Positions 297 through 15,263 of a stretch of 64,000 bases of DNA are shown here, one piece after another. A model generated the notes under the pieces. That model saw only the letters and a list, made by a program, of their open reading frames with translations. It had not been told where the DNA came from and searched no databases. Both the position numbers and the translations under genes were made by a program. The DNA comes from Arenibacter catalasegens (lineage in GTDB: Bacteria; Bacteroidota; Bacteroidia; Flavobacteriales; Flavobacteriaceae), in NCBI RefSeq assembly GCF_002909235.1, contig NZ_PHQQ01000003.1, forward strand, positions 62,001 through 126,000. The letters are read 5' to 3'. Numbering within the stretch: the stretch's first letter is position 1; each line of letters starts with the position of its first letter.

Positions 297-449
297 CGTG
301 TTCTATAATTAGAGTCCGTTTATGTTGTAGGACATTGGTATAACAGCTTGACTTACCTCCATACATAAGTTACTATAATTATAGGACTACTAAATTCAGC
401 TTTTGTTACATAAAAAGCGTAACATAGTTTTCAAGACCGGCTGGAACAA

Positions 450-902
450 TTATTGTTTTCGTTCCAATTTTTCCAATTTCTCCATATCTTTTTCAATTCC
501 GTTTTGCAATTTATCAATTTTCTGGTTCAGCTTCTCGATCGCCATTGGTGACAATTTACCCTTTTTCTGATCCTTGGTCATTTTCTCCTGAAGCTTTTCT
601 ATTTTTCTTGAATCTTTGGCAATAGACCTTCTCTTGGAATCTATGTCTGATGAAAGTCTTTCCCGCTTTTTCAATTCCTTTTCAGCCTTCTTTTGGGCTT
701 TTTCAGCCTTCATGGCATCCCTTTCCGCCTTATCTACCCTTTTTTGAATTTCCTTAGCTTCTTTGGCTTCCTGTAAAATTCTAGCTTGCTCCATTTGTTC
801 GGTATTTTCATTTGGAGTTACCGGAACTTCTGTTTCTTGTGCCAAGGTGATTTGGCAGAAAAAAGCTATTGCCAATAATGTAATAATTCTGATTGATTTC
901 AT
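450..902 (-). CDS. secreted coiled-coil protein of unknown function
   Basis: 150 residues. Residues 1-21 form a signal peptide (MKSIRIITLLAIAFF, cleavage probably after LA before QET). The rest is almost entirely Lys/Glu/Arg/Gln in heptad-like order from about residue 35 to the end, so a long helical coiled coil exported to the periplasm or cell surface. No catalytic motif is visible. Similar charged secreted helices are common and unassigned in Flavobacteriaceae. It is transcribed away from mnmE and has no operon partner in the window. Confidence 0.6.
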   Translation of the reverse strand: MKSIRIITLLAIAFFCQITLAQETEVPVTPNENTEQMEQARILQEAKEAKEIQKRVDKAERDAMKAEKAQKKAEKELKKRERLSSDIDSKRRSIAKDSRKIEKLQEKMTKDQKKGKLSPMAIEKLNQKIDKLQNGIEKDMEKLEKLERKQ

Positions 903-1220
903 ATAGTCGTTTTAAGTTGAATTTCCGAATACACCAGCCTCCAAAAGTAAATTGTACTCCATTCGCTATCGTATTTAGGACACTATCAAAATTAGATTAT
1001 TTAACCGGAATTAATTATGATTTAAATCATAATATTAAACTTTACTATTCCTAAAATAGAAGTTCTAAACCATTATCATATTAGTGGTTTCCAACCGTTT
1101 CACAAAGTGTTCATACCTGTCCTTCCCAAGTTCCCGAAAAGTAAATCATAGCTACTAACAATTAGAAATCGGAACAGGATTAAAAATTATAAATCGTATT
1201 TTTACCACCAATTTAAATCT
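903..1220. promoter_or_regulatory. divergent intergenic region with a 20-bp perfect palindrome
   Basis: 318 bp between the secreted coiled-coil gene (minus) and mnmE (plus). It is AT-rich and has no plausible ORF. At 1014-1033 lies the perfect palindrome ATTATGATTTAAATCATAAT, about 190 bp upstream of mnmE and 110 bp from the other start. It could be a dimeric regulator site; nothing here identifies the protein. Confidence 0.35.
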
Positions 1221-2618
1221 ATGATTACCAACGACAACATCATTGCTTTGGCCACTCCTTCAGGGGCGGGTGCCATAGCCGTTATCCGAATTTCCGGGAA
1301 AGAGGCCATTGCCTTGACCAATCCTTTCTTCAAATCGATTAGAGGGAAGGACTTAAAGAAACAAAAGAGCCATACCATTCATTTGGGGCATATTACGGAG
1401 AACGAAAAGGTGTTGGATGAAGTCTTATTATCTCTTTTTATAGGTCCTAATTCGTACACAGGTGAAGATGTTGTTGAAATATCCTGCCATGGTTCGCCCT
1501 ATATTCAACAACAAATAATTCAATTGTTCCTGAGAAATGGTTGCCGAATGGCCACAGCAGGCGAATTTACACTGCGTGCCTTCTTAAACGGAAAAATGGA
1601 CTTGAGTCAGGCCGAAGCCGTGGCTGATCTTATTGCTTCTGATAATGAGGCCAGCCACCAGATCGCTATTCAACAAATGCGTGGTGGGTTCAGTAACGAA
1701 ATAAAAAAATTGAGGGACCAGCTCTTGAACTTTGCTTCGCTCATGGAATTGGAACTCGACTTTGCAGAGGAAGATGTAGAATTTGCGGACCGAACTCAGT
1801 TCAAAATTCTACTGACCAAGATACAACGGATTTTAAAACGATTGATAGACTCTTTTGCCGTGGGAAATGTGATCAAGAATGGCATTCCAATTGCCATTGT
1901 AGGAGAACCCAATGTTGGCAAATCTACCTTGCTTAATGCACTTTTAAATGAGGAACGGGCCATTGTAAGCGATATTGCAGGAACTACCAGGGATACCATA
2001 GAAGATGAGATTGTAATAGGTGGTATAGGATTTCGGTTCATTGATACTGCTGGAATCCGGGATACCAAAGATGTTGTGGAGAGTATTGGGATAAAAAAGA
2101 CTTTTGAAAAAATAGAACAGGCTCAAGTAGTCGTGTTATTGGTAGATGGTTGGCAGATTGCAACTGATCCTGTTAAACTGAAGTTCAGTTTAAGGGAACT
2201 GGGAAAAATTAAAAATAAATATCCCCACAAACCCTTAGTTGTAATTGCCAATAAGGTAGATATGTTAGATGAAGTTCAAATAATGAATCTACAATCCCAA
2301 ATATCGGATCTCTATTTATTATCCGCCAAAACAGGAAAAGGAGTGGAAACCTTAAAATCGCGTTTATTGGATTTTGTAAATACAGGGGCGCTGAGAAACA
2401 GCGAAACCATTGTAACCAATACAAGACATTACAGCTCCCTTCTCAAGGCATTGGAGGAAATAGAGAAGGTGCAATTTGGAATGACGGATGACACTCCCAG
2501 TGACCTCTTGGCCATAGATGTAAAGGAAGCACTCTACCATTTGGGGGAAATTACAGGGCAAGTGACCAATGACGAACTTTTGGGAAATATTTTTGCTAAT
2601 TTCTGTATCGGGAAATAG
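1221..2618 (+). CDS. mnmE: tRNA-5-carboxymethylaminomethyluridine GTPase MnmE (TrmE)
   Basis: 465 residues, normal length. With MnmG it builds cmnm5U34 at the wobble base of certain tRNAs in the cytoplasm. The N-terminal folate-binding domain runs to about residue 118, followed by the helical domain. An inserted Ras-like G domain has GEPNVGKST near 228, the SDIAGTTRD switch, DTAG near 275 and NKVD near 344. The C-terminus is the diagnostic FCIGK, whose Cys takes part in modification. The last 18 bases form the left attachment site of the island that follows, and the gene stays intact because the element restores the CIGK-stop codons. Confidence 0.97.
   Translation: MITNDNIIALATPSGAGAIAVIRISGKEAIALTNPFFKSIRGKDLKKQKSHTIHLGHITENEKVLDEVLLSLFIGPNSYTGEDVVEISCHGSPYIQQQIIQLFLRNGCRMATAGEFTLRAFLNGKMDLSQAEAVADLIASDNEASHQIAIQQMRGGFSNEIKKLRDQLLNFASLMELELDFAEEDVEFADRTQFKILLTKIQRILKRLIDSFAVGNVIKNGIPIAIVGEPNVGKSTLLNALLNEERAIVSDIAGTTRDTIEDEIVIGGIGFRFIDTAGIRDTKDVVESIGIKKTFEKIEQAQVVVLLVDGWQIATDPVKLKFSLRELGKIKNKYPHKPLVVIANKVDMLDEVQIMNLQSQISDLYLLSAKTGKGVETLKSRLLDFVNTGALRNSETIVTNTRHYSSLLKALEEIEKVQFGMTDDTPSDLLAIDVKEALYHLGEITGQVTNDELLGNIFANFCIGK
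2601..2618 (+). other. attL: left island boundary in the mnmE 3' end
   Basis: TTCTGTATCGGGAAATAG encodes F-C-I-G-K-stop of mnmE. A 15/18 match, TTCTGTATCGGAAAGTAA, occurs at 14025-14042, where it again reads FCIGK-stop after an unrelated upstream sequence. A tyrosine recombinase starts about 170 bp to the right. This is the same chromosomal site used by SGI1-type islands, though the integrase here is of Bacteroidetes type. Confidence 0.85.
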
Positions 2619-2788
2619 ACAGTGGATTCATATGATATCATATGGTTGCAAATGACTGTAAATCAAATGATTGTTGATAACTCTATAGATTTTCTTTTCC
2701 TTTGATAAGGTGATATTCGTACTTTTATTGTGTCTCATGTGTGTCGCATTCTCCTTTGTATAAGACGAGACACAAAAAATGTGTCGCT

Positions 2789-3946
2789 ATGATGAAAGTT
2801 CACTTAAGGAAGAAGAAATTAAAAACTGGGAAACAGAGCCTTTATTTAGAGTTCTATAAAGGAATTAAAACTCTTAGTAATGGAAAGGTTAAACACCTTA
2901 GAAATTACGAATACCTACAACTCTATTTAATAGAAGATCCCAAAACGACGGATGAAAAGAAAAAGAATCAAGAACATCTTGAATTGGCCGAACAAATACT
3001 GGCCATTAGAAAGGCTGAAGTCTATCAGGGGAAGTATAACCTTAAAAACGACACAAAAGGAAAAGTTAGTTTATTAGACTTTTACGTCCAGAAGAAAGAG
3101 GAACGCTACCAGACCAAAGGCAATTATGACAACTGGGATGCCGCACAAAAGCACATAGAAGCCTATTGTCCTGCCCACATCACTCTAAACGATTTAGATG
3201 TTGATTTCATTAAAGGGTTTAAAAAATACCTGGATACTGTAGCCGTAACAAAAAGTAGTAAGAACCTTTCCCAAAACACGAAACATACCTATTTTAACAA
3301 ATTTAAGGCTTGCCTTAATGCAGCTTTCGATGAAGGCTACCTAAAAGAAAACCTCATTAAAAAAGTCAAAGGTTTTACAATGGGGGAATCTACTCGAGAA
3401 TACCTCACATCTGATGAACTTCAAAAATTGTCACAGACCCCCTGCCATATCCCACTTCTTAAACGAGCCTTTTTATTTTCATCCCTAACTGGCATAAGAT
3501 GGTCGGATGTCAATAAATTAAAATGGTCGGAGGTCCGCGAAGAAGGCATTGACAATATGGGAATTCCTATTTTCCGAATTGTGTTTCAGCAAAAGAAAAC
3601 GGAGGGTGTAGAATATTTGTATATATCACAACAGGCCAGGGTGCTTTTAGGTGAACGTAAGGATTCTGAGGAACGTGTTTTCAAAGGGTTGCGCTATAGT
3701 GCCCACATGAACCTACAATTGCTCCGCTGGTGTATGTTTGCTGGAATAAAAAAACATATAACCTTCCATTCCGCAAGGCACACTAACGCAGTATTACTTT
3801 TAGAAAATGGCGCCGATATTTATACCGTTTCAAAACGTCTCGGACATCGTGAAATCAGAACTACAGAAATATATGCCAAAATCATAGATCAAAAAATGAA
3901 GGAAGCTGCGAACCTACTTCCTAAGTTGAATTTGGATTTGTTGTAG
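2789..3946 (+). CDS. tyrosine recombinase (integrase) of the mnmE island
   Basis: 385 residues from the ATG at 2789, which begins MMKVHLRKKKLKTGK, a usual start for Bacteroidetes phage/transposon integrases. An in-frame GTG at 2741 would add 16 unlike residues. An N-terminal Arm-like domain is followed by a SAM-like core-binding domain (about 90-200) and the catalytic domain: Arg in TGIRWSDV, Lys in QQKKTEG, HSARHTNA (H-x-x-R), and nucleophile Tyr in TTEIYAKI near the end. All catalytic residues are present, so it should be active. It catalyses integration and excision at the mnmE 3' end. Confidence 0.93.
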   Translation: MMKVHLRKKKLKTGKQSLYLEFYKGIKTLSNGKVKHLRNYEYLQLYLIEDPKTTDEKKKNQEHLELAEQILAIRKAEVYQGKYNLKNDTKGKVSLLDFYVQKKEERYQTKGNYDNWDAAQKHIEAYCPAHITLNDLDVDFIKGFKKYLDTVAVTKSSKNLSQNTKHTYFNKFKACLNAAFDEGYLKENLIKKVKGFTMGESTREYLTSDELQKLSQTPCHIPLLKRAFLFSSLTGIRWSDVNKLKWSEVREEGIDNMGIPIFRIVFQQKKTEGVEYLYISQQARVLLGERKDSEERVFKGLRYSAHMNLQLLRWCMFAGIKKHITFHSARHTNAVLLLENGADIYTVSKRLGHREIRTTEIYAKIIDQKMKEAANLLPKLNLDLL

Positions 3947-3953
3947 TACTCTT

Positions 3954-4058
3954 TCAAGGTTCCAATATCACTTGGTTGATAGAATAGGGTTCTAACTCCA
4001 ATGCAATTTCGTACTCTGCTGTTCCAAATTTTTCGCAATACTGTTTATTTATAAACAT
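3954..4058 (-). pseudogene. 34-codon gene fragment (C-terminal end of a larger protein?)
   Basis: The minus strand encodes 34 residues ending GTAEYEIALELEPYSINQVILEP. The composition and the ending EPYSINQVILEP look like the last beta-strands of a carbohydrate-active or beta-rich enzyme rather than a random frame, but no full domain is left. It sits between the integrase and the RES gene, convergent with the integrase. Most likely a remnant of earlier cargo; chance cannot be excluded. Confidence 0.3.
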
Positions 4059-4112
4059 CTGATTGTTAACTACTTTTTAATAATCAACATGATGTTCTGG
4101 TAATTAACGTCT

Positions 4113-5027
4113 ATGTTAATTACCGATAAAATTGGGTATAGCAATTTAAACCCATATCCATCCGTAACAAACAATAATTTGATGACCCGCAAATTAAAGG
4201 ATAAATTGGCAAATTTGGATTTTCGACACAGTTCTGTAGAAGAAATCGAGAAAATATTCTCTAAAGAAATACTAGGTCATACTCGACCAACTATTAATAT
4301 TTCACCTGACGGACTTTTTAGAGCTCGAATAATAACCAATACAAAAGAGGACGATTTACAGACAACAAAATCAATATGGTATCCAAATTTTAGGGAAATT
4401 GACCAAAAATATCATCAGTTAAATAGATGTAGTGATATCGGACAGAATTTCTTCTACTCTTCTAATTATTTAGAAGCTGTTATAAAAGAATTAAATCCTA
4501 AAAATGGGGATTTAATAATTATTGGAATATTCCACAAAAAATTTCCTGAGACTAAAATACGTTCTCAATATGCAGGTATTGAAGCACTAAAAACAAACCC
4601 TAAAGAAAATTCGGAATTAAAAGGCTACAAGTATATAAGCGAAAGCGACAAAATAATTGAGGAATATGTCTCATCAAAATTTCAAGATAAAGTTGCTGAA
4701 GGCGAAGAATATAAATACAAACCGAGTATCGCTTTTAGTAATATTCTCTTGAAAAATGAATGTATTGACTGTTTAATATATCCAAGTGTAGCTTCCGATT
4801 TAAAATCTGTGAATTATGGAATTAAAGCGAATTTCGTGGACAAGTTTCTTTATTGCCAAAGCACATACATTTACACCATAAAAAAGAGTGGAAACGAATT
4901 TGAACTTATCCCAAATAAATACGGAAAAAGAATAGTATTCGACAAAAAAGATGCAAAAAATTCAATAATTGAATGGAAGGAAAATAAAGCAAGTGAAAAG
5001 CAACAGACGATAAAATACTGTTTGTAA
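4113..5027 (+). CDS. RES-domain protein, stand-alone
   Basis: 304 residues. The RES fold spans about 65-265: an Arg-rich opening (GLFRARII), a central NRCSDIGQNFFYSSNYLEAVIKE block matching the family pattern R..GRFN..G...YYA...A..E, and a late IDCLIYPSVASDLKSVNYG block. Known RES toxins (e.g. MbcT, Res) degrade NAD+ and pair with Xre/MbcA antitoxins. No antitoxin gene is next to this one; upstream is the integrase and a fragment, downstream an intron remnant. The N-terminal 60 residues are extra compared with compact RES toxins. The start could also be Met24 (4182). AT-rich compared with its neighbours, consistent with separate acquisition. Confidence 0.7.
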   Translation: MLITDKIGYSNLNPYPSVTNNNLMTRKLKDKLANLDFRHSSVEEIEKIFSKEILGHTRPTINISPDGLFRARIITNTKEDDLQTTKSIWYPNFREIDQKYHQLNRCSDIGQNFFYSSNYLEAVIKELNPKNGDLIIIGIFHKKFPETKIRSQYAGIEALKTNPKENSELKGYKYISESDKIIEEYVSSKFQDKVAEGEEYKYKPSIAFSNILLKNECIDCLIYPSVASDLKSVNYGIKANFVDKFLYCQSTYIYTIKKSGNEFELIPNKYGKRIVFDKKDAKNSIIEWKENKASEKQQTIKYCL

Positions 5028-5039
5028 TCGAGTGGATGG

Positions 5040-5390
5040 CTCCGCCATTAAATGATGGAGTGTACCCCTCCCACCAAGGTACGTGCGGGTCTCGCCCTCC
5101 CGAATGGTACGGGAAGGCCCGCCTATCTAATTCGGGTAAATATACGGCGGTTCGCAAAAAGATGGGTTGAGTTCTAAGTAAACATCGGTTAATGATTGAT
5201 AGCCTCGCGTTTTTAAGCGTTTTAAAGTAATGGTCGTGCCTAAAATAAGCTTCTGTGCTGTTGCCCAACCACATTTACGAGTTCTGCTCCATGCATAGGC
5301 ATGGTCTTGGTTCTTGGTTCCATAAGCGTAGCGGTCTAGTTTATGTGCAACGCGATACAATCGCGCGGGAACGAGGGTTTTACACCCGGA
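5040..5390 (-). pseudogene. group II intron remnant: maturase C-terminus plus 3' intron end
   Basis: The minus strand from about 5387 to 5127 encodes the last 80-odd residues of a group II intron-encoded protein. The landmarks KLDRYAYGTKNQDHAYAWS, RTRKCGWATAQ and LKTRGYQSLTDVYLEL match the post-domain-X tail (TRxxNL..AY.W...RKGYWRIA..L...GY.SL...YL). The frame closes upstream at a stop after about 12 further codons, so the reverse transcriptase is lost. Past the stop, 5120-5040 (minus) is hairpin-rich and GC-rich, ending in GGTGGGAGGGG-like sequence as expected for domains V/VI. Non-functional; the 5' part is absent. Confidence 0.6.
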
Positions 5391-5483
5391 TTTCTAGTTT
5401 AATCCTTCCCCAATGCGTTAAACAACAAACATCTTCGTTTTCAAAATAAATCCTTACCTTGAATTTCAAATTAAAAACTTAGC

Positions 5484-6911
5484 ATGATGAAGAATCCAAA
5501 TACCCCTTCTGCCGGCCGACGACAATTTATCCGAAACACAACAGCCGCAGTAGGGGGTTTTGTGATACTTCCCAGGTATGTTCTTGGAGGCAAAGGATAT
5601 ACCGCACCCAGTGACAAAGTAAATATCGGCATTGTCGGAGCGGGGGGTCAGGGACAGAGTAATGTTCGTAATTTACTTCAACTGGACGACGTACAGATTA
5701 CCTCGGTCACAGATCCGGGTCGTTATTGGGATTTGAATCGATTCTATTACAAGTCCATTGCCGGACGGGAACCGGTCAGTGAAATGATTGAGGATCATTA
5801 TCAGAAAAAAGGAGAGAACAAAGTGGTTCGTCGATATAAACGATTTAGTGAAATGATGGATAAGAAAAAAGATATCGATGCCATTCTTTGCGCTACCCCT
5901 GACCATACCCACGCCTTTATCACCATCGCTGCCCTTAAGGCAGGACTGCATGTTTTTTGCGAGAAACCCATGGCTCACAATATATGGGAAACCAGGATGG
6001 TACGTAAAGTAGTACAAGAAACGGGACTCGCCACTCAGATGGGTAACGTGGGACATAGTCGGGACGGCATGCGTTCATTGGTCGAATATCTGCAGGATGG
6101 TGCTATCGGAACTGTACGCGAAATCCATGCGTGGGTTCCTGCAGGTCGCTGGACCCTGGGTATTACAGGTCTTCCTCAAAATACCAATCCACTTCCTTAT
6201 GATTTTGATTGGGAGGAATGGTTGGGACCGTCACCATTTCGGCCCTATAACAATCTTTTTTCGCCAGTCACTTGGCGGGATTTTTGGATATATGGTTGCG
6301 GTGCATTGGGAGACTTTGGATGTCATGATATGGATGCACCTTTTTGGGCCTTCGATCTATCGAGCCCGTCCGAGGTTCAGATTTACCCTGCCGGACAAAG
6401 TAATAGTGAAATTGCTCCTTATGGAGAGGCCGGCACTTATCATTTTCCTGAAAGGAAGGGCCAGGCTGCACTCAAATTACACTGGTATTCCGGAGGCTTA
6501 AAACCGGATTGGAATCCCCATTTGCCACCAGATTACAAATTCGGAGGGAGGAGCGCCATGTACGTGGGCGATAAAGGGGTTATTATCACCGATGGCGGTG
6601 ATCGTTTTCCTCAGATATTCCCCGAATCCTTGAGACGATCTTATCAACCACCCGTGGAACGGATTCTGCGATCGAAAGGTCATCATCGCGACTGGGTAGA
6701 TGCCATCAAAAACGGAGGGCAATCCAGTGCCAATCTTGATTATGGAAGTCGGCTTACCGAATTAACCCTGCTGGGGGTAATGTCTCTTCGCCTGAATGGT
6801 GCTCGGATACAGTGGGATGCCAAAAACATGAAAGTCAATGGACTACCGGAAACAGAATCAATCGTTAAGGAGCCATCCAATGAAGAATGGGATATTTCCA
6901 AGATTATGTAA
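5484..6911 (+). CDS. Gfo/Idh/MocA family oxidoreductase with Tat signal
   Basis: 475 residues. The N-terminus carries a twin-arginine-type signal (GRRQFIRNTTAAVGGFVI), so the enzyme is probably exported to the periplasm. The Rossmann NAD(P)-binding motif GIVGAGGQGQSN lies near residue 50, the family lysine motif CEKPMAHN near 158, and a C-terminal alpha/beta substrate domain follows. Such Tat-exported members typically oxidize sugars or glycoside derivatives and sit in polysaccharide loci. Here it is isolated cargo inside the island, with no transporter or hydrolase beside it. It looks more GC-rich than its neighbours, suggesting separate origin. The start may be the second Met (5487). Confidence 0.88.
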   Translation: MMKNPNTPSAGRRQFIRNTTAAVGGFVILPRYVLGGKGYTAPSDKVNIGIVGAGGQGQSNVRNLLQLDDVQITSVTDPGRYWDLNRFYYKSIAGREPVSEMIEDHYQKKGENKVVRRYKRFSEMMDKKKDIDAILCATPDHTHAFITIAALKAGLHVFCEKPMAHNIWETRMVRKVVQETGLATQMGNVGHSRDGMRSLVEYLQDGAIGTVREIHAWVPAGRWTLGITGLPQNTNPLPYDFDWEEWLGPSPFRPYNNLFSPVTWRDFWIYGCGALGDFGCHDMDAPFWAFDLSSPSEVQIYPAGQSNSEIAPYGEAGTYHFPERKGQAALKLHWYSGGLKPDWNPHLPPDYKFGGRSAMYVGDKGVIITDGGDRFPQIFPESLRRSYQPPVERILRSKGHHRDWVDAIKNGGQSSANLDYGSRLTELTLLGVMSLRLNGARIQWDAKNMKVNGLPETESIVKEPSNEEWDISKIM

Positions 6912-7007
6912 ATAGGGACAGGTCACTATTATTAAATTTATAACTGCGGGAATGGAATAAAGCTATAGACAGCTTATATATTTCCAACAACAAAAATGCT
7001 CCCCGCT

Positions 7008-7030
7008 AGTGCGAGCGTCACGCTCGTACT
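7008..7030. repeat. REP-like short palindrome
   Basis: Arms AGTGCGAGCGT and ACGCTCGTACT separated by one base, one G-T pair in the stem. It is shortly after the Gfo/Idh gene but about 100 bp past its stop and has no T-tract, so it is more like a dispersed extragenic palindrome than a terminator. No second copy was found in this window. Confidence 0.4.
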
Positions 7031-7428
7031 AAATCAATACACCCCAACCAGTTCTGTTTATTCTTAAGATGGGACAGCTTACCGAATAAAGAATATGGCT
7101 TTAAAATAATTTTTGGATAAGTACGTATTCAGACAAACCCAAACAAAGAAATCTGCCTTTTTTCAGTCCCAAATTCCCAACCTATTCATTTTCAATTGTT
7201 AATAACTCTGTTTTTTACCTAAAAACATCAATTTGACCAATATAACATTTGGTCCCATTTGATGTTTTATGATATCAAATAAAATTTGATGAAAATACCT
7301 TTACTATCAATTGGCATCATATAACACATCGCTCTATTATCCAGATAGTTGTGGATAACTATTTGTGTTTCTCATCACTTTCAGCCTAGCTATTTTCTAC
7401 TTTTATTTTAACAAACCTATAGAAGGTA

Positions 7429-7446
7429 AACAAAAGCGCTTTTGTT
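7429..7446. promoter_or_regulatory. 18-bp perfect palindrome upstream of the HTH gene
   Basis: AACAAAAGCGCTTTTGTT is fully palindromic and ends 27 bp before the start at 7474. The position suits an operator controlling the HTH/helicase genes, possibly bound by the HTH protein itself. Confidence 0.5.
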
Positions 7447-7473
7447 CATTTCTTAATCTTAAAAGAGAAACAA

Positions 7474-7761
7474 ATGGACACTATTTTAATCTTTGATCGC
7501 TTAGATCGTTTGGAGAAACTGTTAACCGCCCATAAAGAGGTGTTGACTTTTGAGGAAACCTGTGACTACACCGGAATATCGAGAAGCTATCTTTACAAAT
7601 TGACTTCCTCCGGGACTATCCCCCACTCCAAGCCCAATGGGAAAATGATTTTCTTTGAAAAAAGAAAGCTGAACAATTGGCTCCTACAGAACAGTAGAAA
7701 ATCCAAGGCCGATATCGAAAAAGAGGCCCTAAGACATACGCTCAAAAATAGACGGCCATGA
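7474..7761 (+). CDS. helix-turn-helix (excisionase-type) DNA-binding protein
   Basis: 95 residues. The core TFEETCDYTGISRSYLYKLT (about residues 25-45), followed by a PNGKMIFFEKRKLNNWL wing, is the helix_turn_helix_17/MerR-like fold used by excisionases and mobilization regulators of Bacteroidetes elements. Its stop overlaps the next start (ATGA at 7758-7761), so it is translationally coupled to the helicase. Likely role: directing excision or regulating the backbone operon. Preceded by an 18-bp palindrome. Confidence 0.8.
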   Translation: MDTILIFDRLDRLEKLLTAHKEVLTFEETCDYTGISRSYLYKLTSSGTIPHSKPNGKMIFFEKRKLNNWLLQNSRKSKADIEKEALRHTLKNRRP

Positions 7762-8951
7762 TAGTCGGTGACCACGGAGGTCAACTTTACAAGGTAAAGG
7801 ATGCCAAAAAAAAGACTATCTACGATTATACCATTGAATACTTGGAAGGGAAGTATGATATCATGTACAATGAGATATCCCATGATTTCCAGATATCGTT
7901 CAAACAAAGAGCTGAATGGTCCTATTTGAATCTCAATTCCCTGATCATTGAACTTGCCAAATCAGGTATTGATATCAGTACAGGAAAACTGGAAATCCTA
8001 ATTCGGTCAGAACTCATTCCCAAATACAATCCAATAAAGGCATACTTCCAATCCCTCCCCAAATGGAACGGGGAAGACCATATCCAAAAACTGACCTCCT
8101 ACGTTCCCACCTATGATGATGAGGCTTTTCTTTACCATTTTAAAAAATGGTTGGTACGTGCCATAAAATGTGCACTGGAACCCGGCTACTTCAACAAACA
8201 AGCCTTGATTATCAGCCATAAGGGACAAAGCTCGGGAAAATCTACCTGGTGTCGGTTTATCTGTCCTCCAGAACTTGCCGAATATATGGCAGAGGACATT
8301 AGCAATGATAAGGATGCCAGGATCCAATTATGCCGGAACTTCCTATACAACCTGGACGAATTGGCCGTGCTGACCAAAAAGGACGTGAATGCACTAAAAG
8401 CTTTTTTTTCCAAGACCTTCATCAACGAACGTCTGCCGTATGACCGAAAGAACACTACACTACCCAGAATCTGTTCGTTTTTGGGATCCACCAATATGTC
8501 GTCATTTCTAAACGATGAGACTGGGTCCGTACGCTGGTTGTGCTTTGAGCTAAAGGATAAAATAGATTTCTCCTACTCCAAGGAAATGGAAATCAAGCAC
8601 GTCTGGATCCAAGCTTATCACCTCGCCTATCATGACCCTAACTTCAATCCAGAACTTACGCTGACGGATATTATGGAGAACGAGGAGCGCAATAAAAAAT
8701 ATACCAAATTAACTACCGAGGAAGAACTTGTTTCCAAATACTTTGAAAAATCGAATGATATGAACGACTTCGTGACCGCCTCGGATGTATTGGTAAAGCT
8801 AAGTAGCCTTAACCTCCGATTGAGCCAAGTTAACCTAGGACGTGCGCTCTCCGGATTTAACTTCCAACGGGTGAAACATCCCAAACGGCAGGTGTATGGG
8901 TATCTGGCCAAATCGGTATTTGCCAAGAGCCCTTGGGAAATAGAATCGTAG
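7758..8951 (+). CDS. VirE/VapE-family P-loop ATPase (replication helicase-like)
   Basis: 397 residues. Walker A (GQSSGKSTW) lies near residue 157 and a Walker B-like FLYNLDEL near 195. A conserved GSTNMSSFLNDETGSVRWLCFEL block follows around 245-265 and the N-terminus has the typical PKWNGEDHI. This is the virulence-associated E family found in phage satellites and mobilizable elements, related to superfamily III replication helicases. It is coupled to the HTH gene by a 4-nt overlap and followed by the TACCTA repeat cluster and primase, suggesting that the excised circle can replicate. Confidence 0.85.
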   Translation: MIVGDHGGQLYKVKDAKKKTIYDYTIEYLEGKYDIMYNEISHDFQISFKQRAEWSYLNLNSLIIELAKSGIDISTGKLEILIRSELIPKYNPIKAYFQSLPKWNGEDHIQKLTSYVPTYDDEAFLYHFKKWLVRAIKCALEPGYFNKQALIISHKGQSSGKSTWCRFICPPELAEYMAEDISNDKDARIQLCRNFLYNLDELAVLTKKDVNALKAFFSKTFINERLPYDRKNTTLPRICSFLGSTNMSSFLNDETGSVRWLCFELKDKIDFSYSKEMEIKHVWIQAYHLAYHDPNFNPELTLTDIMENEERNKKYTKLTTEEELVSKYFEKSNDMNDFVTASDVLVKLSSLNLRLSQVNLGRALSGFNFQRVKHPKRQVYGYLAKSVFAKSPWEIES

Positions 8952-8965
8952 AAAAGTGCCATTGC

Positions 8966-9149
8966 ACCTACCTACTTACCTAACGAACCAGAACCGCTCT
9001 AACTGCGGGAGCTACCATAGGTAAGATACATTAACCACTAGTTACCTAGGTATTACCTATCCTACCTATTAGGATTAGATAGGTAAGATCAAAAAACAAC
9101 CCACCTAAGTGATCAACCCTTATAAACAGGGACTTAGGTAAGAAGGTAG
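8966..9149. repeat. iteron-like cluster of TACCTA/TAGGTA motifs
   Basis: The 225-bp gap between helicase and primase holds about ten copies of a TTACCTAR-type motif in both orientations, e.g. 8970-8974, 8976-8983, 9018-9024, palindrome TACCTAGGTA at 9043-9052, 9053-9059, 9063-9068, TAGGTAAGAT at 9080-9089, 9103-9109 and CTTAGGTAAG at 9133-9142. Such density just between replication genes resembles iterons of a replication origin; an operator array for the primase is the alternative. Confidence 0.6.
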
Positions 9150-9176
9150 GAGAAAATGCCAAAAAAGAATTAACTG

Positions 9177-10040
9177 ATGAAAAAAGAAAGAACTATTAAG
9201 CTGACGTGCGAAAGAGCCCGAGCTTTTCCCATCGAAAAAGCGTTGGCAAAACTCGGGCACTTTCCAACAAAAGAATCTAATAAAGAAGCTTGGTTCCTGA
9301 GTCCGTTCCGCTCAGAAACGCAAGCCTCTTTCAAGGTGTCCAAGAAACTGAACCGATGGTACGACCACGGTATTGGGAAAGGGGGAAATGTAATCGATCT
9401 GATTTGTCTAATCAACAAAACATCGGTAAAGGAAACATTGGATTGGCTACAAAACGGTAAGATTTCTTTTTCTTTTCAGCCGCCACTTTTTAAAGAGGAC
9501 AATCAAGATAAGATCGAGATAAAGTATTTCAAGGAACTGGCCCATTTTGCTCTAGAGGAATATGTAATGAAAAGAGGGATTTCAATATTGACTGCCAGAA
9601 AACTGTGCAAGGAAGTCCACTATAGGTTTAAGGACAAGATGTATTTCGCCCTAGGATTAGCGAACAATTCTGGAGGTTGGGAATTACGGAACAAATATTA
9701 TAAGAATTCCAGCTCCCCAAAAGATGTCACTCACCTCCAGAACGCAAACAGTAGGCTGATGGTTACCGAAGGAATGTTCGATATGTTGAGCCTAATGGAA
9801 CGGGACAATGAACTAAGGGAGAGGAACGATCTTCTGATATTGAACTCCCTGGGTTTTATAGAAAAAACGCTTGAAATGTTTGACCCCTATGAATCAATTG
9901 CGCTTTATCTAGACAATGACCGTGCAGGAAGAAATGCCGTTAAAATAATGATGCAACAACAGTCAAAATGTACAGACAGATCAACATTATATGAGAATTT
10001 TAAAGACGTAAATGGATGGTGGACCGCTCAAAAGAAATGA
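9177..10040 (+). CDS. CHC2-fold/Toprim DNA primase of the mobilizable element
   Basis: 287 residues. The N-terminal half has the layout of the primase zinc-finger domain (SPFRSETQASFKV ... WYDHGIGKGGNVIDLI), but the metal-binding Cys/His are replaced (SPFR for CPFH, GIGKGG for CFGCGKGG), so zinc is probably not bound. The C-terminal Toprim domain has MVTEGMFDML near 195 and ALYLDNDRAGR near 245, keeping the catalytic Glu and DxD. Primases of this architecture are usual beside mobilization genes in Bacteroidetes elements and prime the transferred strand or element replication. The start is ATG after a run of A residues. Confidence 0.85.
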   Translation: MKKERTIKLTCERARAFPIEKALAKLGHFPTKESNKEAWFLSPFRSETQASFKVSKKLNRWYDHGIGKGGNVIDLICLINKTSVKETLDWLQNGKISFSFQPPLFKEDNQDKIEIKYFKELAHFALEEYVMKRGISILTARKLCKEVHYRFKDKMYFALGLANNSGGWELRNKYYKNSSSPKDVTHLQNANSRLMVTEGMFDMLSLMERDNELRERNDLLILNSLGFIEKTLEMFDPYESIALYLDNDRAGRNAVKIMMQQQSKCTDRSTLYENFKDVNGWWTAQKK

Positions 10041-10143
10041 TCTGATGATAATGATATTTTATACCGAAAAATAAATAACCTATTAATAAATACAATTTTA
10101 ACACATAAAAGAAATAATCTGATAGTGATGTAATTCAAGATGT

Positions 10144-10193
10144 GTCTTTGTTGCCACAAAGACGATCTTGCTTTGCTCCCGAAGGTCGCAAAG
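10144..10193. other. candidate origin of transfer (oriT) hairpins
   Basis: In the 162-bp gap before mobC lies a perfect hairpin GTCTTTGT-TGCC-ACAAAGAC (10144-10163), followed by a second with arms CTTTGC (10171-10176) and GCAAAG (10188-10193) around CTCCCGAAGGTC. Inverted repeats next to a nick region directly upstream of mobC-relaxase are the usual oriT layout. The nick position cannot be told from sequence. Confidence 0.5.
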
Positions 10194-10202
10194 ACGTGAA
10201 AA

Positions 10203-10499
10203 ATGAAACGTACCTATGTTAAATTTCGATGTTCCCTCTTCGAGAAGAAGTTGCTCCGGATCAAGGCCAAAAAGAGCGGTCTGAGCGTGAGCGAATATTG
10301 CCGGCGTGCAGCTTTTGGAGATAAAATTATTGAACGGTTGACCGAGGAACAAATTGAACTCTATAAGATGTTGGCAAGGTACGGGACCAACTTTAAACTC
10401 ATCGGGAACATGTACCGAAAACGGGATCCCAAACTGACGGCCGAGGTGACAAAGCTAGCAGAAGAAATACGGAACCACCTTTATAATTTCAAAAAATGA
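10203..10499 (+). CDS. mobC: MobC-like mobilization accessory protein
   Basis: 98 residues. An N-terminal ribbon-helix-helix-like part (KFRCSLFEKKLLRIKAKKSGLSVSEYCRRAAFG) is followed by helices typical of Bacteroidetes MobC/BmgA partner proteins. It binds oriT DNA and helps the relaxase open the strands. It overlaps the relaxase start by 4 nt (ATGA at 10496), so both are co-translated. Directly downstream of the candidate oriT. Confidence 0.82.
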   Translation: MKRTYVKFRCSLFEKKLLRIKAKKSGLSVSEYCRRAAFGDKIIERLTEEQIELYKMLARYGTNFKLIGNMYRKRDPKLTAEVTKLAEEIRNHLYNFKK

Positions 10500-11365
10500 T
10501 AGGCATAGGAAAATCAATATCGCATACCGGAAATTCCATGAGTTATGGCTGGAACAAGGAGAAACAAGCAGAGGTCGTATACTCCAATCACGTGGCTGGG
10601 CAAACCCCAAACCAGATTACCAAAGAGTTCAACATCATCCAATCCCAGAACTATCAATGCAAAAAGAATACGTTGAGTTTTGTCATCAGCCCTACGATTG
10701 AAGATGGAAAACAGCTAAAAGCCAAAGAGCTCAACGAGATGACTGCAAAGTTTCTCAAGGAAATGAAATTACAGGAACATCAGGCCATCGCCTTTGTACA
10801 TAGGAACCAACCGCATACCCATGTTCATGTGTACGTAAACCGGATCGATTTTAACGGCACTGCCTATAACGACAGTTTTATCGGGAAGAGAAGTCAGCTA
10901 GCCGCGGAACGGGTAGCAGAGAAAATGGGGCTAACCACGGTACGGGAAGTTCAACTGGAAAGATTGGAACAGTTACTGAATATAAGACAGGAGATTAAAA
11001 ATGTTCATGAAAAAGTGATGAACGAACAACGCCCCAAAGACCTGGATAACTATATCAAGCTTATGAAGGAAAAAAACGTAGTAGTCATCCCCAGCATCAA
11101 TAAGTCCAATCAACTGCAAGGATTTCGGTTCCAATACAAAGGCCACAACCTAAAAGGAAGCGAGGTACACCGTTCCATGTCCGGCAGCAGATTGGTGATG
11201 GGAATAGAAAAACATGTGGAGAGGAGCTTCCTGCAAGGCCAAAGCAATACTGTAAGCCTCATGGGAAAGGCCACTCAGCTCAGTGGGAATATCGCTATAA
11301 AACTGGCTAAATCAGTCATCAAACAAGCGATTCAAAAAGGTGTAGGAATGGAAATAGGATATTAA
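10496..11365 (+). CDS. relaxase (MobA/MobP-type mobilization protein)
   Basis: 289 residues. The metal-binding triad is the HTHVHVYVNRI motif near residue 106. The N-terminus MIGIGKSISHTGNSMSYGWN supplies candidate nucleophile Tyr near position 17. A family-typical block around NFNGTAYNDS (here DFNGTAYNDS) follows. It nicks oriT and pilots the strand into a helper conjugation system. At 289 residues it is a relaxase domain with a short helical tail, as in small Bacteroides mobilizable transposons, without a fused helicase or primase. Confidence 0.9.
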   Translation: MIGIGKSISHTGNSMSYGWNKEKQAEVVYSNHVAGQTPNQITKEFNIIQSQNYQCKKNTLSFVISPTIEDGKQLKAKELNEMTAKFLKEMKLQEHQAIAFVHRNQPHTHVHVYVNRIDFNGTAYNDSFIGKRSQLAAERVAEKMGLTTVREVQLERLEQLLNIRQEIKNVHEKVMNEQRPKDLDNYIKLMKEKNVVVIPSINKSNQLQGFRFQYKGHNLKGSEVHRSMSGSRLVMGIEKHVERSFLQGQSNTVSLMGKATQLSGNIAIKLAKSVIKQAIQKGVGMEIGY

Positions 11366-11383
11366 AATTTAAACCAAAATACT

Positions 11384-11848
11384 ATGGCAAAGCTAGATGA
11401 GATTACGGAACTGTTGACCGACGAATTAGAAGGACTAAAACAGATGTTGGTACAATTAAAAACACTGACTAAAGAACTGACCGGTTCGGAAACGGTAAAG
11501 GATATTTCCTCGATACGGTACGAACTGAAGGAACTAAATAAAACACAGGAGGATCATTTTAAAAGGCAGGATACAAGAACCATCCAAATAGAGGAACAAT
11601 TGAAGAAGTCGCAAATAATCCCTGAATGGTTATTGTTCCTGGTCTGTATGGTACTTATCCTGTCCCTATCCATTTCTGGCTATTTGGGCTATCAGGTGGC
11701 ACAGTTCGGGGAAGAAAAAGAGAAGGCTTTTGAAGAGGGAAGTGCATATATTTCAACCGAATTGAAGGGGTACTTTGTAGAACATCCAGAGGCCTATAAA
11801 ACATTCTTGGAATGGTCCAAAAAAGAAGTAAATTCAGATCTAAAGTAG
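11384..11848 (+). CDS. coiled-coil membrane-anchored protein of the mob operon
   Basis: 154 residues: a charged helical N-terminal half (about 1-85, heptad-like), one transmembrane helix (about 88-110, LLFLVCMVLILSLSISGYLG), then a polar C-terminal tail. It follows the relaxase by 18 bp in the same direction, so is probably in the mobilization operon. Small membrane proteins at this position are common in Bacteroidetes mobilizable elements; their role (relaxosome docking?) is not established. No family recognised with certainty. Confidence 0.65.
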   Translation: MAKLDEITELLTDELEGLKQMLVQLKTLTKELTGSETVKDISSIRYELKELNKTQEDHFKRQDTRTIQIEEQLKKSQIIPEWLLFLVCMVLILSLSISGYLGYQVAQFGEEKEKAFEEGSAYISTELKGYFVEHPEAYKTFLEWSKKEVNSDLK

Positions 11849-11955
11849 GTTGCGCCCTATGCTGTTTTTGCTTCACGCTTATCTGCCGGAACACTACAAA
11901 AACGGCACAGGAACCAAGCGCAAAGTTTTTGGGTAAGGATTTGGGACGTACATAT

Positions 11956-12933
11956 CTAAAATACGATCTCCCATTTTACCTGGGCCAATCGCCTTGACAC
12001 TTCAATAATCGTCGCTAATACATCCTCTTCCTTGGGCAACTCCCCATACACCAAAAATTTAAAGTCATTCTGATAGGTGTCTTTAAGTTGTTTCCAAGTT
12101 TCTTCAGGTTCATTGTAAATCAATGCTACTTTCGGGTGGTACTTTAACCAGTCGTTGTTATTCTTAAAACTTTGTACATCATCATGGGCTACTTTTAGGA
12201 GCATCGTATCAAAGGTATCTGAAGTAAAAAACTCTTGAACCGTTTCGTCTTTCAGTAGCTGATGAATATCATATACATGCCTGATTTTAGCATTCAGGTC
12301 AATAATTGGTTTTTCCGTATGTGAGAACCGAACCAAACTCATTATCTTTTCACAAAACGTTCTTCGAGAATCCAATACAAGTGCTTCAAAAGGCAATAGA
12401 TCATATTCTTCCGCCAATGTCGTTTGGTTGGTGGCATTCATCATATCATAGATATAGGTATTCAGGACTCTCTTAGTGTGAGGTTCAAAATAGCCCAGCC
12501 AAGTTGCTTCTATGATAATGGCATCTCTTACCTGTCCATAATTTCCTTTAAAAATTTTGGGATAGTTATAGGCTATCTTTCGAATCATTCCCATTTTATT
12601 GGTAATCCCTTCCATTTCTATTTCTACGAATGGTGTAGTTATTTCCTTAGTTATTTTTTTGAGCTTAGCCTTTAATTGGTTCCCTGTCTCTTCTTCTCTT
12701 CGTATTACAACTAAATCAATATCCTCAGAAAAACGTTCGATGAATTTATAACACTTTGACAAAGCCGTGCCTCCCTTAAATATGACTTCATCTTTAATAG
12801 TGCTATCAAAGATCAGTTTTAGGGCATGGCATACCCAATAATCCTTCTCGATATAGATATCTAAAATACCCATCCGTTCTGCAGTTACTTGCACAGCTTG
12901 TCTGAAAAGTTGTTCGTTCTCGTGCAGCTTCAT
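11956..12933 (-). CDS. abiEii: AbiEii-type nucleotidyltransferase toxin
   Basis: About 325 residues. Nucleotidyltransferase core: EKDYW near 30, FKGGTALSK near 55-60 and RFSEDIDLVV near 70, the metal-binding GG...SEDiD signature of AbiEii/DUF1814. Type IV AbiE toxins are GTP-binding nucleotidyltransferases giving abortive phage infection and bacteriostasis. I place the start at 12933 because ATGA there overlaps the stop of the antitoxin gene; the longer start (12945) gives a 16-nt overlap. Convergent with the mobilization operon. It occupies the right-hand cargo slot of the island. Confidence 0.85.
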   Translation of the reverse strand: MKLHENEQLFRQAVQVTAERMGILDIYIEKDYWVCHALKLIFDSTIKDEVIFKGGTALSKCYKFIERFSEDIDLVVIRREEETGNQLKAKLKKITKEITTPFVEIEMEGITNKMGMIRKIAYNYPKIFKGNYGQVRDAIIIEATWLGYFEPHTKRVLNTYIYDMMNATNQTTLAEEYDLLPFEALVLDSRRTFCEKIMSLVRFSHTEKPIIDLNAKIRHVYDIHQLLKDETVQEFFTSDTFDTMLLKVAHDDVQSFKNNNDWLKYHPKVALIYNEPEETWKQLKDTYQNDFKFLVYGELPKEEDVLATIIEVSRRLAQVKWEIVF

Positions 12934-13661
12934 TTTATATTCCAATATTTAGCATTTGACAACACTTTTTTAGAAATATCAAAATCATAAACCGTTATTG
13001 GGTTTAAACTATCTTGAAGTTCTCTTATTTCAGTCTCTGCCTTGCAATTAATCCCTCTTAGCAATGCACCCAATAAAGCTCTGGTTGCGGGGGAATATTT
13101 AAAGGCCAATTTTATAAGTTTTATATGTTCGCTAGTTTTCAATTCGCGCAATAATGCCATAAATCGAATACAACTTTTTTCAACGGTGGTATCAGGTATT
13201 TTCTTAATATAACGTATGGCATCCAACAATCGTAATAGTGGAATATTTTCCTTATTGATAGTATTCTTTTGTTTGATGAACGAAATTCTAAAACGTCCTC
13301 TTTTAAAAGAAGGTCGTATCTCACGTTTGCCTATCTGTATCGTGCTGCTTACTTGTGTGGTAAGTCCTAGGGAATTATAAACGCTATACCCTGTAATATA
13401 CCCTACTAGTTTGCCGTCTTCCTCCAACAAATCTTTTACAATTTGGTGTTGATCTGGCAACAAAGTACCGAATACAGTTTCTTGCGGCTTGAAGTATTTA
13501 CCTTTAGATAGTTTATTAATCTTACCGGAAGTAGCCATTCTATTCAGATGTTTAATGATGGCTTCTCTCCTATCCACCTCGTTCATAAAATCCATATAGG
13601 TGAATACATAACCTTTGGGCAACTTATTAATCTTATCTTCTATGTATTCAGAGGTTTTCAT
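12930..13661 (-). CDS. abiEi: AbiEi-type antitoxin (DUF6088-like, winged helix)
   Basis: 243 residues from ATG 13661 (MKTSEYIEDKINKLPKGYVF). A TTG start at 13679 is possible but lies inside the predicted -7 element TATCTTTG (13684-13677), so is unlikely. The N-terminal winged-helix part (about 1-60, with HLNRMATSGKINKLSKGKYF) fits a transcriptional repressor; the C-terminal domain follows DUF6088/AbiEi architecture. It should repress its own operon through the 14-bp inverted repeat just upstream and counteract the AbiEii toxin without direct contact (type IV). Confidence 0.82.
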   Translation of the reverse strand: MKTSEYIEDKINKLPKGYVFTYMDFMNEVDRREAIIKHLNRMATSGKINKLSKGKYFKPQETVFGTLLPDQHQIVKDLLEEDGKLVGYITGYSVYNSLGLTTQVSSTIQIGKREIRPSFKRGRFRISFIKQKNTINKENIPLLRLLDAIRYIKKIPDTTVEKSCIRFMALLRELKTSEHIKLIKLAFKYSPATRALLGALLRGINCKAETEIRELQDSLNPITVYDFDISKKVLSNAKYWNIK

Positions 13662-13676
13662 TGGAAACTGTTTATA

Positions 13677-13725
13677 CAAAGATATTCAATATGTCCAGTT
13701 TATTAGTTAAAAAACTGGACATATT
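13677..13725 (-). promoter_or_regulatory. abiE promoter and AbiEi operator (14-bp perfect inverted repeat)
   Basis: Arms AATATGTCCAGTTT (13688-13701) and AAACTGGACATATT (13712-13725) are perfect, with a 10-nt AT-rich spacer. The minus-strand -7 element TATCTTTG lies at 13684-13677, immediately next to the repeat, so a dimer bound there would cover the -33 region. AbiEi antitoxins are known to bind inverted repeats in their promoter, which fits autoregulation. Confidence 0.75.
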
Positions 13726-14024
13726 TTAATAAGTGCTGATAACTTTAGTTGCATTGTATATGTAGCTTAATCAATTTTCAATAATGTCCACTCAATAACT
13801 TCCAATGAAAAGTCTAAAACCAACGGCTAATTTTCCAACTTATAACGAAACGCAAAAAATGGATGGAAGACTGTAGATCTCAAATAGGGTCAAGAGATAC
13901 AAAACTCATTGAAATTCTTAAAAAGAAGGATTAACTTAGAACAAATTTGTATCTCGTTTTTTAGTTTTGTACCCCATGTGTACCTCAAAGCGCGGTAACC
14001 CCAGTAAAATAGGTATTCGTTACT

Positions 14025-14042
14025 TTCTGTATCGGAAAGTAA
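14025..14042 (+). other. attR: right island boundary
   Basis: TTCTGTATCGGAAAGTAA matches the mnmE end at 15/18. The codons before it (V-F-V-T, versus I-F-A-N in mnmE) also resemble the gene for a few residues, and the frame closes at TAG just upstream, so about 27 bp of mnmE-like sequence is present. After excision the recombined site would still encode CIGK-stop. Confidence 0.8.
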
Positions 14043-14069
14043 CTGAGAAGGATTAATAATAAATCACAT

Positions 14070-14447
14070 ATGGGTCTATTAAATAAAATATTAGGAAACG
14101 TGAATGAGGTATCATCAGAAAAACTTAATCAAAAGTATGCTAGATTACTTATCGACGATGAACAAATCGAACTCGGATTTGCCTTGTTCAGGGATGTATT
14201 TATGTTCACCAACAAAAGGTTGATTTTAGTAGATATTCAGGGCTTGACGGGAAGCAAAATAGAGTATAAATCGTTGCCCTATAAAAACATCTCCCGCTTC
14301 TCCCTGGAAACATCAGGAACATTTGATTTGGACGCAGATCTGAAGATTTGGATTTCCAGTGAGGACACACCCAGTGTAAGTAATAAATTCAACAAAAGCA
14401 TAGATGTATATGAAGTCCAAAAATATTTGGCCAAAAAGGTAATGTAA
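14070..14447 (+). CDS. PH-domain (bPH) protein
   Basis: 125 residues, a single bacterial pleckstrin-homology domain: LIDDEQIELGFALFRDVFMFTNKRLILVD, then SLPYKNISRFSLETSG and the closing helix EVQKYLAKKV. This is the YvbH/DUF-type stress-associated PH family, whose ligands are unknown. It is the first gene right of the island boundary and probably ancestral chromosome, since no mobility genes follow. No operon partner is evident. Confidence 0.8.
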   Translation: MGLLNKILGNVNEVSSEKLNQKYARLLIDDEQIELGFALFRDVFMFTNKRLILVDIQGLTGSKIEYKSLPYKNISRFSLETSGTFDLDADLKIWISSEDTPSVSNKFNKSIDVYEVQKYLAKKVM

Positions 14448-14541
14448 CTTATTACTTTAAAAGTTTAAATAAAGTATTACTAAATTAGCCAGATAATTGT
14501 ATATCCCCAATGAGGATACCCAATGGTCAACAATATACAAT

Positions 14542-14898
14542 ATGGAAAAAACAGAATTTCTTGAAAAAAATATCTTTCTAAACTTGGAAAACCTTAATGA
14601 TGAATTTGACACTGATTCACTACACTATTTTTCAGAGTCCGATTTTGAGATAGTTTTAGAGCGAATAGAAAAGTTAGGAATTGGAATCCATGAAATTAAA
14701 CCTCGTTTGGAAGGGGAAGCCTTAGATGCAAAACCAAATGAAGACTATAGGAAAAAAGCGACTGACCCAAAATGGTATAAAAAGGCATTTTCCGAATTCA
14801 AAAAACAACAACCTAACCTTCAGTATTCAGCCACATATAAGGTTTCAGATAAGTTACTGAATAGGCAAAATATTATCGGTAATAAAGAACTTAGCTAA
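14542..14898 (+). CDS. hypothetical acidic protein
   Basis: 118 residues from ATG 14542 (MEKTEFLEKNIFLNLENLND); an in-frame TTG at 14497 adds 15 residues but is weaker. The sequence is acidic and helical in the first half (FSESDFEIVLERIEKLGIG) and ends with a basic segment. No signal peptide, membrane segment or recognised motif. It follows the PH-domain gene by about 95 bp in the same direction. Confidence 0.4.
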   Translation: MEKTEFLEKNIFLNLENLNDEFDTDSLHYFSESDFEIVLERIEKLGIGIHEIKPRLEGEALDAKPNEDYRKKATDPKWYKKAFSEFKKQQPNLQYSATYKVSDKLLNRQNIIGNKELS

Positions 14899-14982
14899 AA
14901 CCAAAATTCAACAAAGGATTGTAAGATTAGCCATTCTTAGCGGCCAATCACCATAAAAAACACCATTTTAAACAGGTAGTTT

Positions 14983-15175
14983 CGCTGTGGTTAACCTATG
15001 GTTACTCTGTGGTTTAAAAGGAGACTTTGCCGTGGTTGGCATGTGTTTAAAATGGGTATCTTCCCCGTAGTTGCCATGTATTTTAATTTAATTAATATAT
15101 TGATTTACAAATAGTTAATATATTACTTCCCTACAACTACTGTGTGATTAAGGTGTGGTTAGCCTGTGGTTGACA
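14983..15175. repeat. TGTGGTT-rich interspersed repeats (block B)
   Basis: Two clusters (14983-15076 and 15138-15175) contain repeated TGTGGTTA/CCTRTGGTT words. On the minus strand they read as ACCACAG-type repeats 3' of the sulfatase pseudogene and its hairpin. A related block lies at 18813-19022 behind another sulfatase. See the findings. Confidence 0.5.
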
Positions 15176-15202
15176 TTTCAGAATCAGACTCCAACGTGCT
15201 AG

Positions 15203-15240: not shown

Positions 15241-15263
15241 CAACTAAACTAACTCAACTCATA

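Follow-up and report, generated by a model that had tools for sequence, protein, structure and literature searches.

What occupies the DNA behind mnmE in Arenibacter catalasegens, and is the end of this gene the landing site of a mobile element? The stretch under study (hereafter the window; 64,000 nt from the 5.45 Mb genome of this member of the Flavobacteriaceae) contains mnmE, followed by a tyrosine integrase gene and, further on, by a second copy of the last 18 bp of mnmE. The region between the copies is very probably an 11.4-kb integrative mobilizable element (IME), the tyrosine integrase of which recombines the attP site of the element with the last 18 bp of mnmE. At the level of sequence, the ends of the element, an empty allele in relatives, recent movement between species and the loyalty of an integrase clade to this site are all demonstrated. 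Throughout, G-numbers denote the genomes compared and L-numbers the sequence stretches or records examined.

The two 18-bp copies, at 2601–2618 and 14025–14042, are identical at 15 of 18 residues and differ at three, with the 3′ part of the second (AAAGTAA) resembling the old chromosomal end. Shuffling the window 100 times never yielded two matches at ≤3 mismatches, and the pattern TTCTGTATCGGRAARTA is found at exactly two places in the host genome, namely the two copies, with none for the reversed control. A chance repeat is rejected on both counts, and the copies are confirmed as attL and attR of an 11.4-kb IME at the mnmE 3′ end. Both repeats, as well as the FCIGK-stop ending of mnmE, had been described in an earlier note made from the sequence, and are borne out; that note had also allowed that the copy at 14025 might be a chance sequence recurring in many genomes, and it is one of only two in this one. 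No RNA family was found by an Rfam scan of positions 1–16000 and no tRNA by a scan of the whole window, so that the attachment site is a protein gene. Of the 40 genomes screened for mnmE, own among them, 39 gave a full-length match, and G025 matched in the GTPase domain only. As the site DNA encodes the conserved C-terminal FCIGK of MnmE, a conserved protein tail here amounts to a stable DNA target.

The DNA behind mnmE was compared for 20 relatives, comprising 17 Arenibacter genomes and three other family members. Of the 18 Arenibacter genomes (window counted), 12 have a family integrase immediately after mnmE, the G004 copy being broken, and a second core copy is present in six of these 12 carriers (own, G009, G005, G013, G017 and G004). 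Three genomes, G002, G003 and G014, harbour a terminator-like stretch behind mnmE and no integrase, and represent empty alleles. Relatives with neither a second repeat nor an empty allele had been named in the earlier note as an outcome that would undermine its proposal; these three possess a single copy and an empty site. When the flanks of the occupied G005 site are joined, they align with all three empty sites, displaying identities beyond the core of 91 % over 2 kb, 82 % over 105 bp and 97 % over 59 bp for G002, G003 and G014, respectively. The other three integrase-free members of the genus, G006, G016 and G011, were not counted as clean empties; in G006 a further core lies 13.8 kb away.

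Comparison with G017 demonstrates how recently the element has travelled. The window element is 99.18 % identical to that of G017 over 11,136 bp, beginning at the core, whereas mnmE and its upstream DNA are only 77.9 % identical (87.7 % for the last 228 bp of mnmE) and the right flank 83.4 % over 453 bp. With the element 99.2 % identical despite flanks that are only 78–88 % alike, recent movement follows, and the earlier description of a living element is upheld in the sense of a recently mobile one. The G017 and window elements differ beyond about 13,750, apart from the last 63 bp. The element of G005 has the same AbiE pair at 97 % and is without the cargo block at about 3948–7148, indicating that cargo is exchanged by modules. 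Conserved mnmE could itself bring flanking DNA along, such that mnmE ends and their islands would have spread between species by homologous recombination over mnmE and not by the integrase. We regard this as scarcely credible, as identity to G017 jumps to 99 % precisely at the core, and as integrase and site occur together in 76 of 80 loci from many genera.

Those 80 loci are the best of 125 integrase relatives (47–99 % identity), found by the Arenibacter integrase sequence alone in named genomes, and each harbours an open integrase frame of ≥347 aa. In 76 of them the mnmE end lies 159–970 bp upstream of the integrase (mnmE being truncated by the contig edge in L102), including loci from Dysgonomonas (L107, Bacteroidales), a Crocinitomicaceae bacterium (L138) and Salibacter (L139). 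The mnmE 3′ ends of other Bacteroidota, which the earlier note had suggested surveying, are occupied in many cases. The four exceptions are L084, without a core, L109, with mnmE 6 kb off, and L085 and L124, with a core and no mnmE. Within the stretches of sequence covered, homologues of the remaining backbone are variably present amongst the 80 loci (HTH 67, primase 42, MbpA 35, relaxase 34, VapE 23 and AbiE 4). A sample across the phylum revealed the integrase at E ≤ 1e-60 in at least 59 of 395 genomes, a lower bound because at most four candidates were scored per genome. The integrase is 150–1300 bp behind a same-strand core match in at least 17 of the 59, with 12 of the 17 judged without fetching the gene; mnmE was found upstream in four more (G082, G092 and G319 outside the class of the host, G184 within it), 15 have no mnmE in the 3.5–4.3 kb upstream (one or two loci each), and the remaining 23 were left out of the site count.

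Site loyalty is also evident from integrase trees. A first quick tree was built from 63 selected rows, of which 47 are at mnmE and 16 are not, with L084, L085, L109 and L124 left out. The site label changes four times on it, supported branches forcing at least three of these changes; the shuffled mean is 14.4, with none of 500 shuffles as low. Adding those four as non-mnmE rows gives nine changes (at least five forced) for 67 rows, against a shuffled mean of 17.4 and again 0 of 500. With so few changes relative to shuffles, inheritance of the site is strong without being absolute. The distant rows G353 and G345 are at mnmE on long branches, and may represent a second origin of the site. In a Bacteroides finegoldii record, too, mnmE is followed by an HTH gene and a distant integrase. 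A viral origin was considered and rejected: 149 phage records were matched, 148 at <60 % identity and one at 60–80 %, with the 12 matches listed reaching 44 %.

The features of the element are collected in Table 1. By anatomy it is an IME, possessing its own integrase and flanking attachment repeats, its own mobilization functions (MbpA, a MobP relaxase and a conserved candidate origin of transfer, oriT) and no conjugation-channel family amongst the 10 element proteins scanned. The integrase contains the arm-binding, core-binding and catalytic domains of the IntCTnDOT subgroup (PF17293, PF13102 and PF00589), with PF17293 being presumably the subgroup's own arm-domain model. Residues R237, K270, H327, R330, H353 and Y362, which we take to be the catalytic residues of the enzyme, are invariant across 20 family members, and the backbone open reading frames (ORFs) of the element are open. 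Much of the earlier note is retained here: the placement of an integrative mobilizable island at the 3′ end of mnmE, a recombinase starting 170 bp in from the left repeat (its ATG, at 2789, agrees), complete catalytic residues, and mobilization, primase, helicase and helix-turn-helix (HTH) genes in the right half, all recovered by family scans. The AbiEi/AbiEii pair (11956–13679), cargo block 1 and the chromosomal look of the second copy's 3′ part were absent from it. For the 304-aa cargo protein, family matches in Pfam, NCBIfam and PADLOC were sub-threshold only (none at E ≤ 0.001), and 119 other Flavobacteriaceae genomes gave one weak match. A search of solved structures returned eight matches, with E-values of 9e-11 or weaker. 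Beyond the element, a dispersed repeat of ~50 bp (15206–15257 and 19059–19110) is shared by several Arenibacter genomes, with one instance immediately following mnmE in G006, and two ~312 bp copies at 22311–22622 and 23690–24000 are 86 % identical, the comparison having stopped at 24000.

Table 1. Coordinates of mnmE, the attachment sites and the features of the element in the window
Feature	Position	Strand	Remarks
mnmE	1221..2618	+	Host gene; last 18 bp form the attachment site; ORF ends FCIGK-stop
attL	2601..2618	+	5′ part chromosomal; 3′ part (AAATAG) taken as element-derived
Left candidate arm-type sites, TGTRYCKC	2729..2787	+	At 2729, 2740, 2767 (minus strand) and 2780; putative
Tyrosine integrase, mnmE-specific clade	2789..3946	+	Pfam Arm-DNA-bind_5, Phage_int_SAM_5, Phage_integrase; frame open from 2741
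Variable cargo block 1	about 3948..7148	+	Not in related G005 element; blastn break points 3947/7149
Orphan cargo protein, 304 aa	4113..5027	+	No recognised family
Gfo/Idh/MocA oxidoreductase, cargo	5484..6911	+	Pfam; present too in G017 and G004
HTH_17/excise-family protein	7474..7761	+	Candidate excisionase or regulator; homologue in 67/80 integrase loci
VapE-like helicase	7758..8951	+	Pfam
Primase (Zn ribbon + Toprim_2)	9177..10040	+	Pfam
Candidate oriT	10132..10197	+	Putative; inverted repeat 10144–10163 and CTCCCGAAGGTCGCA at 10176–10190
MbpA mobilization protein	10203..10499	+	NCBIfam NF041418 above cut-off
MobP-type relaxase (MobA/VirD2 nuclease domain)	10496..11365	+	Pfam PF03432; MbpB and TraI_MobP NCBIfam matches weaker, below cut-off
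DUF6730 protein	11384..11848	+	Pfam
AbiEii toxin, type IV toxin-antitoxin pair	11956..12945	-	Pfam, PADLOC
AbiEi antitoxin (DUF6088)	12930..13679	-	PADLOC, Pfam
Right candidate arm-type sites	13948..13986	+	At 13948 and 13979; near-match TGTACCCC at 13968 (by eye); putative
attR	14022..14042	+	ACT + 18-bp core (14025–14042); 3′ part AAAGTAA, same as empty sites of G002 and G003

With regard to transfer, 27 of the 35 MbpA loci carry a loose form of the motif CTCCCGAAGGTCGCA, beside an inverted repeat, in the 300 bp preceding mbpA, and the 45 loci without MbpA have it nowhere; motif and repeat together are likely the oriT. TraG of Bacteroidetes conjugation was sought with one model in 15 genomes and the host. 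The host has one, on contig C15, with the element on C23, and all five other Arenibacter carriers examined possess TraG, always outside the element. A self-transmissible integrative and conjugative element (ICE) of Bacteroidetes TraG type was thereby rejected, as no TraG lies inside mnmE elements with known ends (own, G005, G017, G013, G009, G004 and G353). In Arenibacter, mobilization in trans is thus the likely route, with the host TraG as candidate helper.

The polymorphisms between copies allow the point of strand exchange to be narrowed. At core position 3, the left copy of G005 has T, in agreement with empty G002 and G003. Its right copy has C there, as do most other right copies. Over its last seven bases the left copy reads GAAATAG, and the right copy reads AAAGTAA, which is the G002 and G003 type. 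The copies end in GGGAAATAG and GGAAAGTAA, respectively, with the second again as in G002 and G003. Strand exchange inside TGTATCGG, which is flanked by the inverted halves TTTC and GAAA, accounts best for these differences. ACT precedes most right copies, with mnmE displaying AAT, AAC or AAG in this position in the genus and in most genomes read; ACT-type right ends occur in nine of 395 sampled genomes, with none for the reversed control. Of 15 matches to TGTRYCKC in 64 kb, seven lie within 200 bp of the two element ends, and these candidate arm sites show an 11-bp spacing at the left end, as at the right. Two further records deserve mention. L216, an IMG/VR contig and one of 31 stretches, harbours ACT and a core at 8732–8752 with a 43 %-identical integrase directly after them, a circle or tandem junction captured in a metagenome. 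L167 (G141) carries at 1501–1521 a core with both element-type flanks (by eye); the other core match, presumably the mnmE end, is 1.45 Mb away, and the L167 core may represent either a secondary site or an old tandem.

From this anatomy a cycle can be proposed for what is an active-looking element, the excision and transfer of which we infer. The integrase would bind the inverted halves, exchange strands in the 8 bp between them and so recombine a predicted attP (ACTTTCTGTATCGGGAAATAG) with the mnmE end, whilst the circle junction is predicted to read ACTTTCTGTATCGG then GAAATAGACAG. Each integration brings the element's own last codons, and MnmE therefore keeps its FCIGK tail. The HTH protein would favour excision, VapE and the primase may replicate the circle, MbpA and the relaxase would nick the oriT upstream of mbpA, and a conjugation system of Bacteroidetes type, present elsewhere in the host cell, would provide the mating channel. 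AbiE, for its part, may keep the element in the lineage.

Several observations weigh against an element that moves in this way. The circle, a same-strain empty allele and transfer are all unobserved, the HTH gene is not adjacent to the integrase in the window element, and in six of the 12 Arenibacter carriers the contig ends before any second repeat. Eight of the 35 MbpA loci display no oriT motif as searched. Outside the genus, carriers of family integrases are often without TraG: it was found in only three of 10 genomes (G353, G361 and G259), with none of this type in G095, G376, G022, G392, G318, G345 and G368. The empty site of G014, TTC...GGGAAGTAA (C at position 3, G at 12), is unlike those of G002 and G003; chromosomal cores thus vary, and the exchange interval is not proven, resting as it does on the G002/G003 type. 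Lastly, the 1.2–1.3 kb that separates the site from the bPH-domain gene (14070 in the window) in G002, G014 and G005 is missing from the window right of attR. This stretch contains an ORF that resembles a zinc metallopeptidase (by eye), and with its absence the DNA on the right side of the element has been rearranged. This loss, together with broken family members such as G004, could mark a relic, that is, an old integration unable to leave owing to the right-flank rearrangement. We consider this improbable given the open backbone ORFs, the intact catalytic residues, the intact cores and ACT end, and the near-identical copy in another species.

Having upheld a mobilizable element with a dedicated integrase, we turn to mnmE ends without one. 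Two close same-strand core copies also occur in distant genomes, and eight such stretches were examined whole. In G070 the stretch consists of the mnmE end, duplicated over a short length. No match to the family integrase model was obtained for the remaining seven (G290, G420, G133, G160, G118, G041 and G313), and five of these (not G420 or G313) have ACT before the right copy. Three carry defence-type genes: 3.9 kb with a CD-NTase (CBASS cyclase) and a TIR-STING effector in G133 (L147, 367–4330), 2.3 kb with a HipA protein in G118 (L151, 277–2547), and 14 kb with type I restriction genes and TmtA in G041 (L152, 292–14265). The 12.8 kb of G160 resembles a polysaccharide-use cluster (by eye), and cargo is thus not always for defence. 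The proteins examined from G420 and G290 matched no family, and G313 gave a weak match. As G290, G133, G160, G118 and G041 are not among the 59 integrase genomes, their stretches would be either former islands whose integrase was lost or cassettes mobilized in trans, and they may encode a very divergent recombinase. A still broader scheme, which we offer as speculative and rather unlikely, would make the mnmE 3′ end a docking site across the whole phylum, with a single old integrase lineage serving it. Besides IMEs, small integrase-less att-ended cassettes (CBASS with TIR-STING, HipA, type I restriction) would use it by moving in trans, and the SGI1 integrase would be an offshoot of the lineage. 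Outside the phylum, a HipB/HipA-like pair (by eye) lies directly behind mnmE in Proteus mirabilis L228 and L229. In E. coli, 5374 genomes match a 600-bp query over the mnmE end and 4602 have one place covering ≥80 %; the nine rows listed under 80 % coverage break at the mnmE end (about 2193 in the K-12 reference L141), and the three genomes inspected harbour an effector-family gene, and no integrase, behind mnmE.

The classic landing site of SGI1 is thus heavily used in another phylum by a dedicated integrase clade, new islands become searchable in any species from mnmE alone, and the finding bears on the origin of SGI1. The SGI1 and MGIVchHai6 islands, like the Arenibacter element, sit in the last 18 bp of mnmE with imperfect 18-bp repeats, and the MGIVchHai6 attL and attR comprise the same 18 bp (PMC4958241), in agreement with the earlier note on the site of SGI1-family islands. 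For SGI1, strand exchange is placed upstream of position 9 at the main site and within positions 3–11 at a secondary site (PMC2297512), an interval overlapping that proposed here. The earlier note had gone on to suggest that an unrelated integrase family converged on this site. This is unsupported because the SGI1 recombinase and Bacteroidetes integrases are placed in one subgroup, IntCTnDOT (PMC8138268), and the window integrase has the Arm-DNA-bind_5/SAM_5/catalytic layout. Identical site, overlapping interval, common subgroup and the inheritance of the site within the Bacteroidota clade in our trees would all be accommodated if the SGI1 integrase came from an old mnmE-specific lineage also ancestral to that clade. 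We entertain such shared descent tentatively, as a possibility of some substance that falls short of our expectation: the distant rows G353 and G345 are at mnmE with the close sisters G187, G336, G074 and G191 elsewhere, so that the site was probably gained or lost more than once. Such sisters, at and off mnmE, provide a sharp system for the inheritance or loss of integrase specificity.

SGI1-family islands are likewise mobilizable, with a toxin-antitoxin pair in SGI1 (PMC3285670, PMC2297512, PMC4958241, PMC5704250). They are islands of Gammaproteobacteria, in another phylum, and SGI1 has MpsA/MpsB where the Arenibacter element has a MobP relaxase and MbpA, and sgiA/sgiT where it has AbiE (SGI1 genes from PMC8409611, PMC9035990); VapE and a primase are a further difference of the Arenibacter element. 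No tra genes were recognised in the Arenibacter element, and family scans of its ORFs, in which SGI1 genes were not used as queries, revealed none of the SGI1 backbone (rep, traN/traG, mpsA/mpsB). Lacking that backbone, it is not an SGI1-family member, despite integration in the same last 18 bp of mnmE. Amongst open-licence PMC papers, no report of mnmE elements in Bacteroidota was found in the matches listed, which is weak evidence of absence. Of the Bacteroidetes IMEs, NBU1 reportedly uses a tRNA site, and the sites of Tn4555 and Tn5520 are loose. NBU1, Tn4555, cLV25 and other Bacteroidetes IMEs share the MobP relaxase with our element, and several rely for mobilization on ICEs that have MPF-B and a VirD4 coupling protein; in the available text of the same source, a trmE site is given only for gammaproteobacterial islands (PMC5704250). 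The Riemerella 10K island and the Chryseobacterium tet(X6) ICE are also site-specific integrase islands of flavobacteria and relatives, whilst occupying tRNA gene sites (PMC6764341, PMC12561888). The dusA-specific integrases, whilst targeting the 5′ end of another gene, similarly constitute one family that is loyal to a single tRNA-modification gene and carries very varied cargo (PMC4482086).

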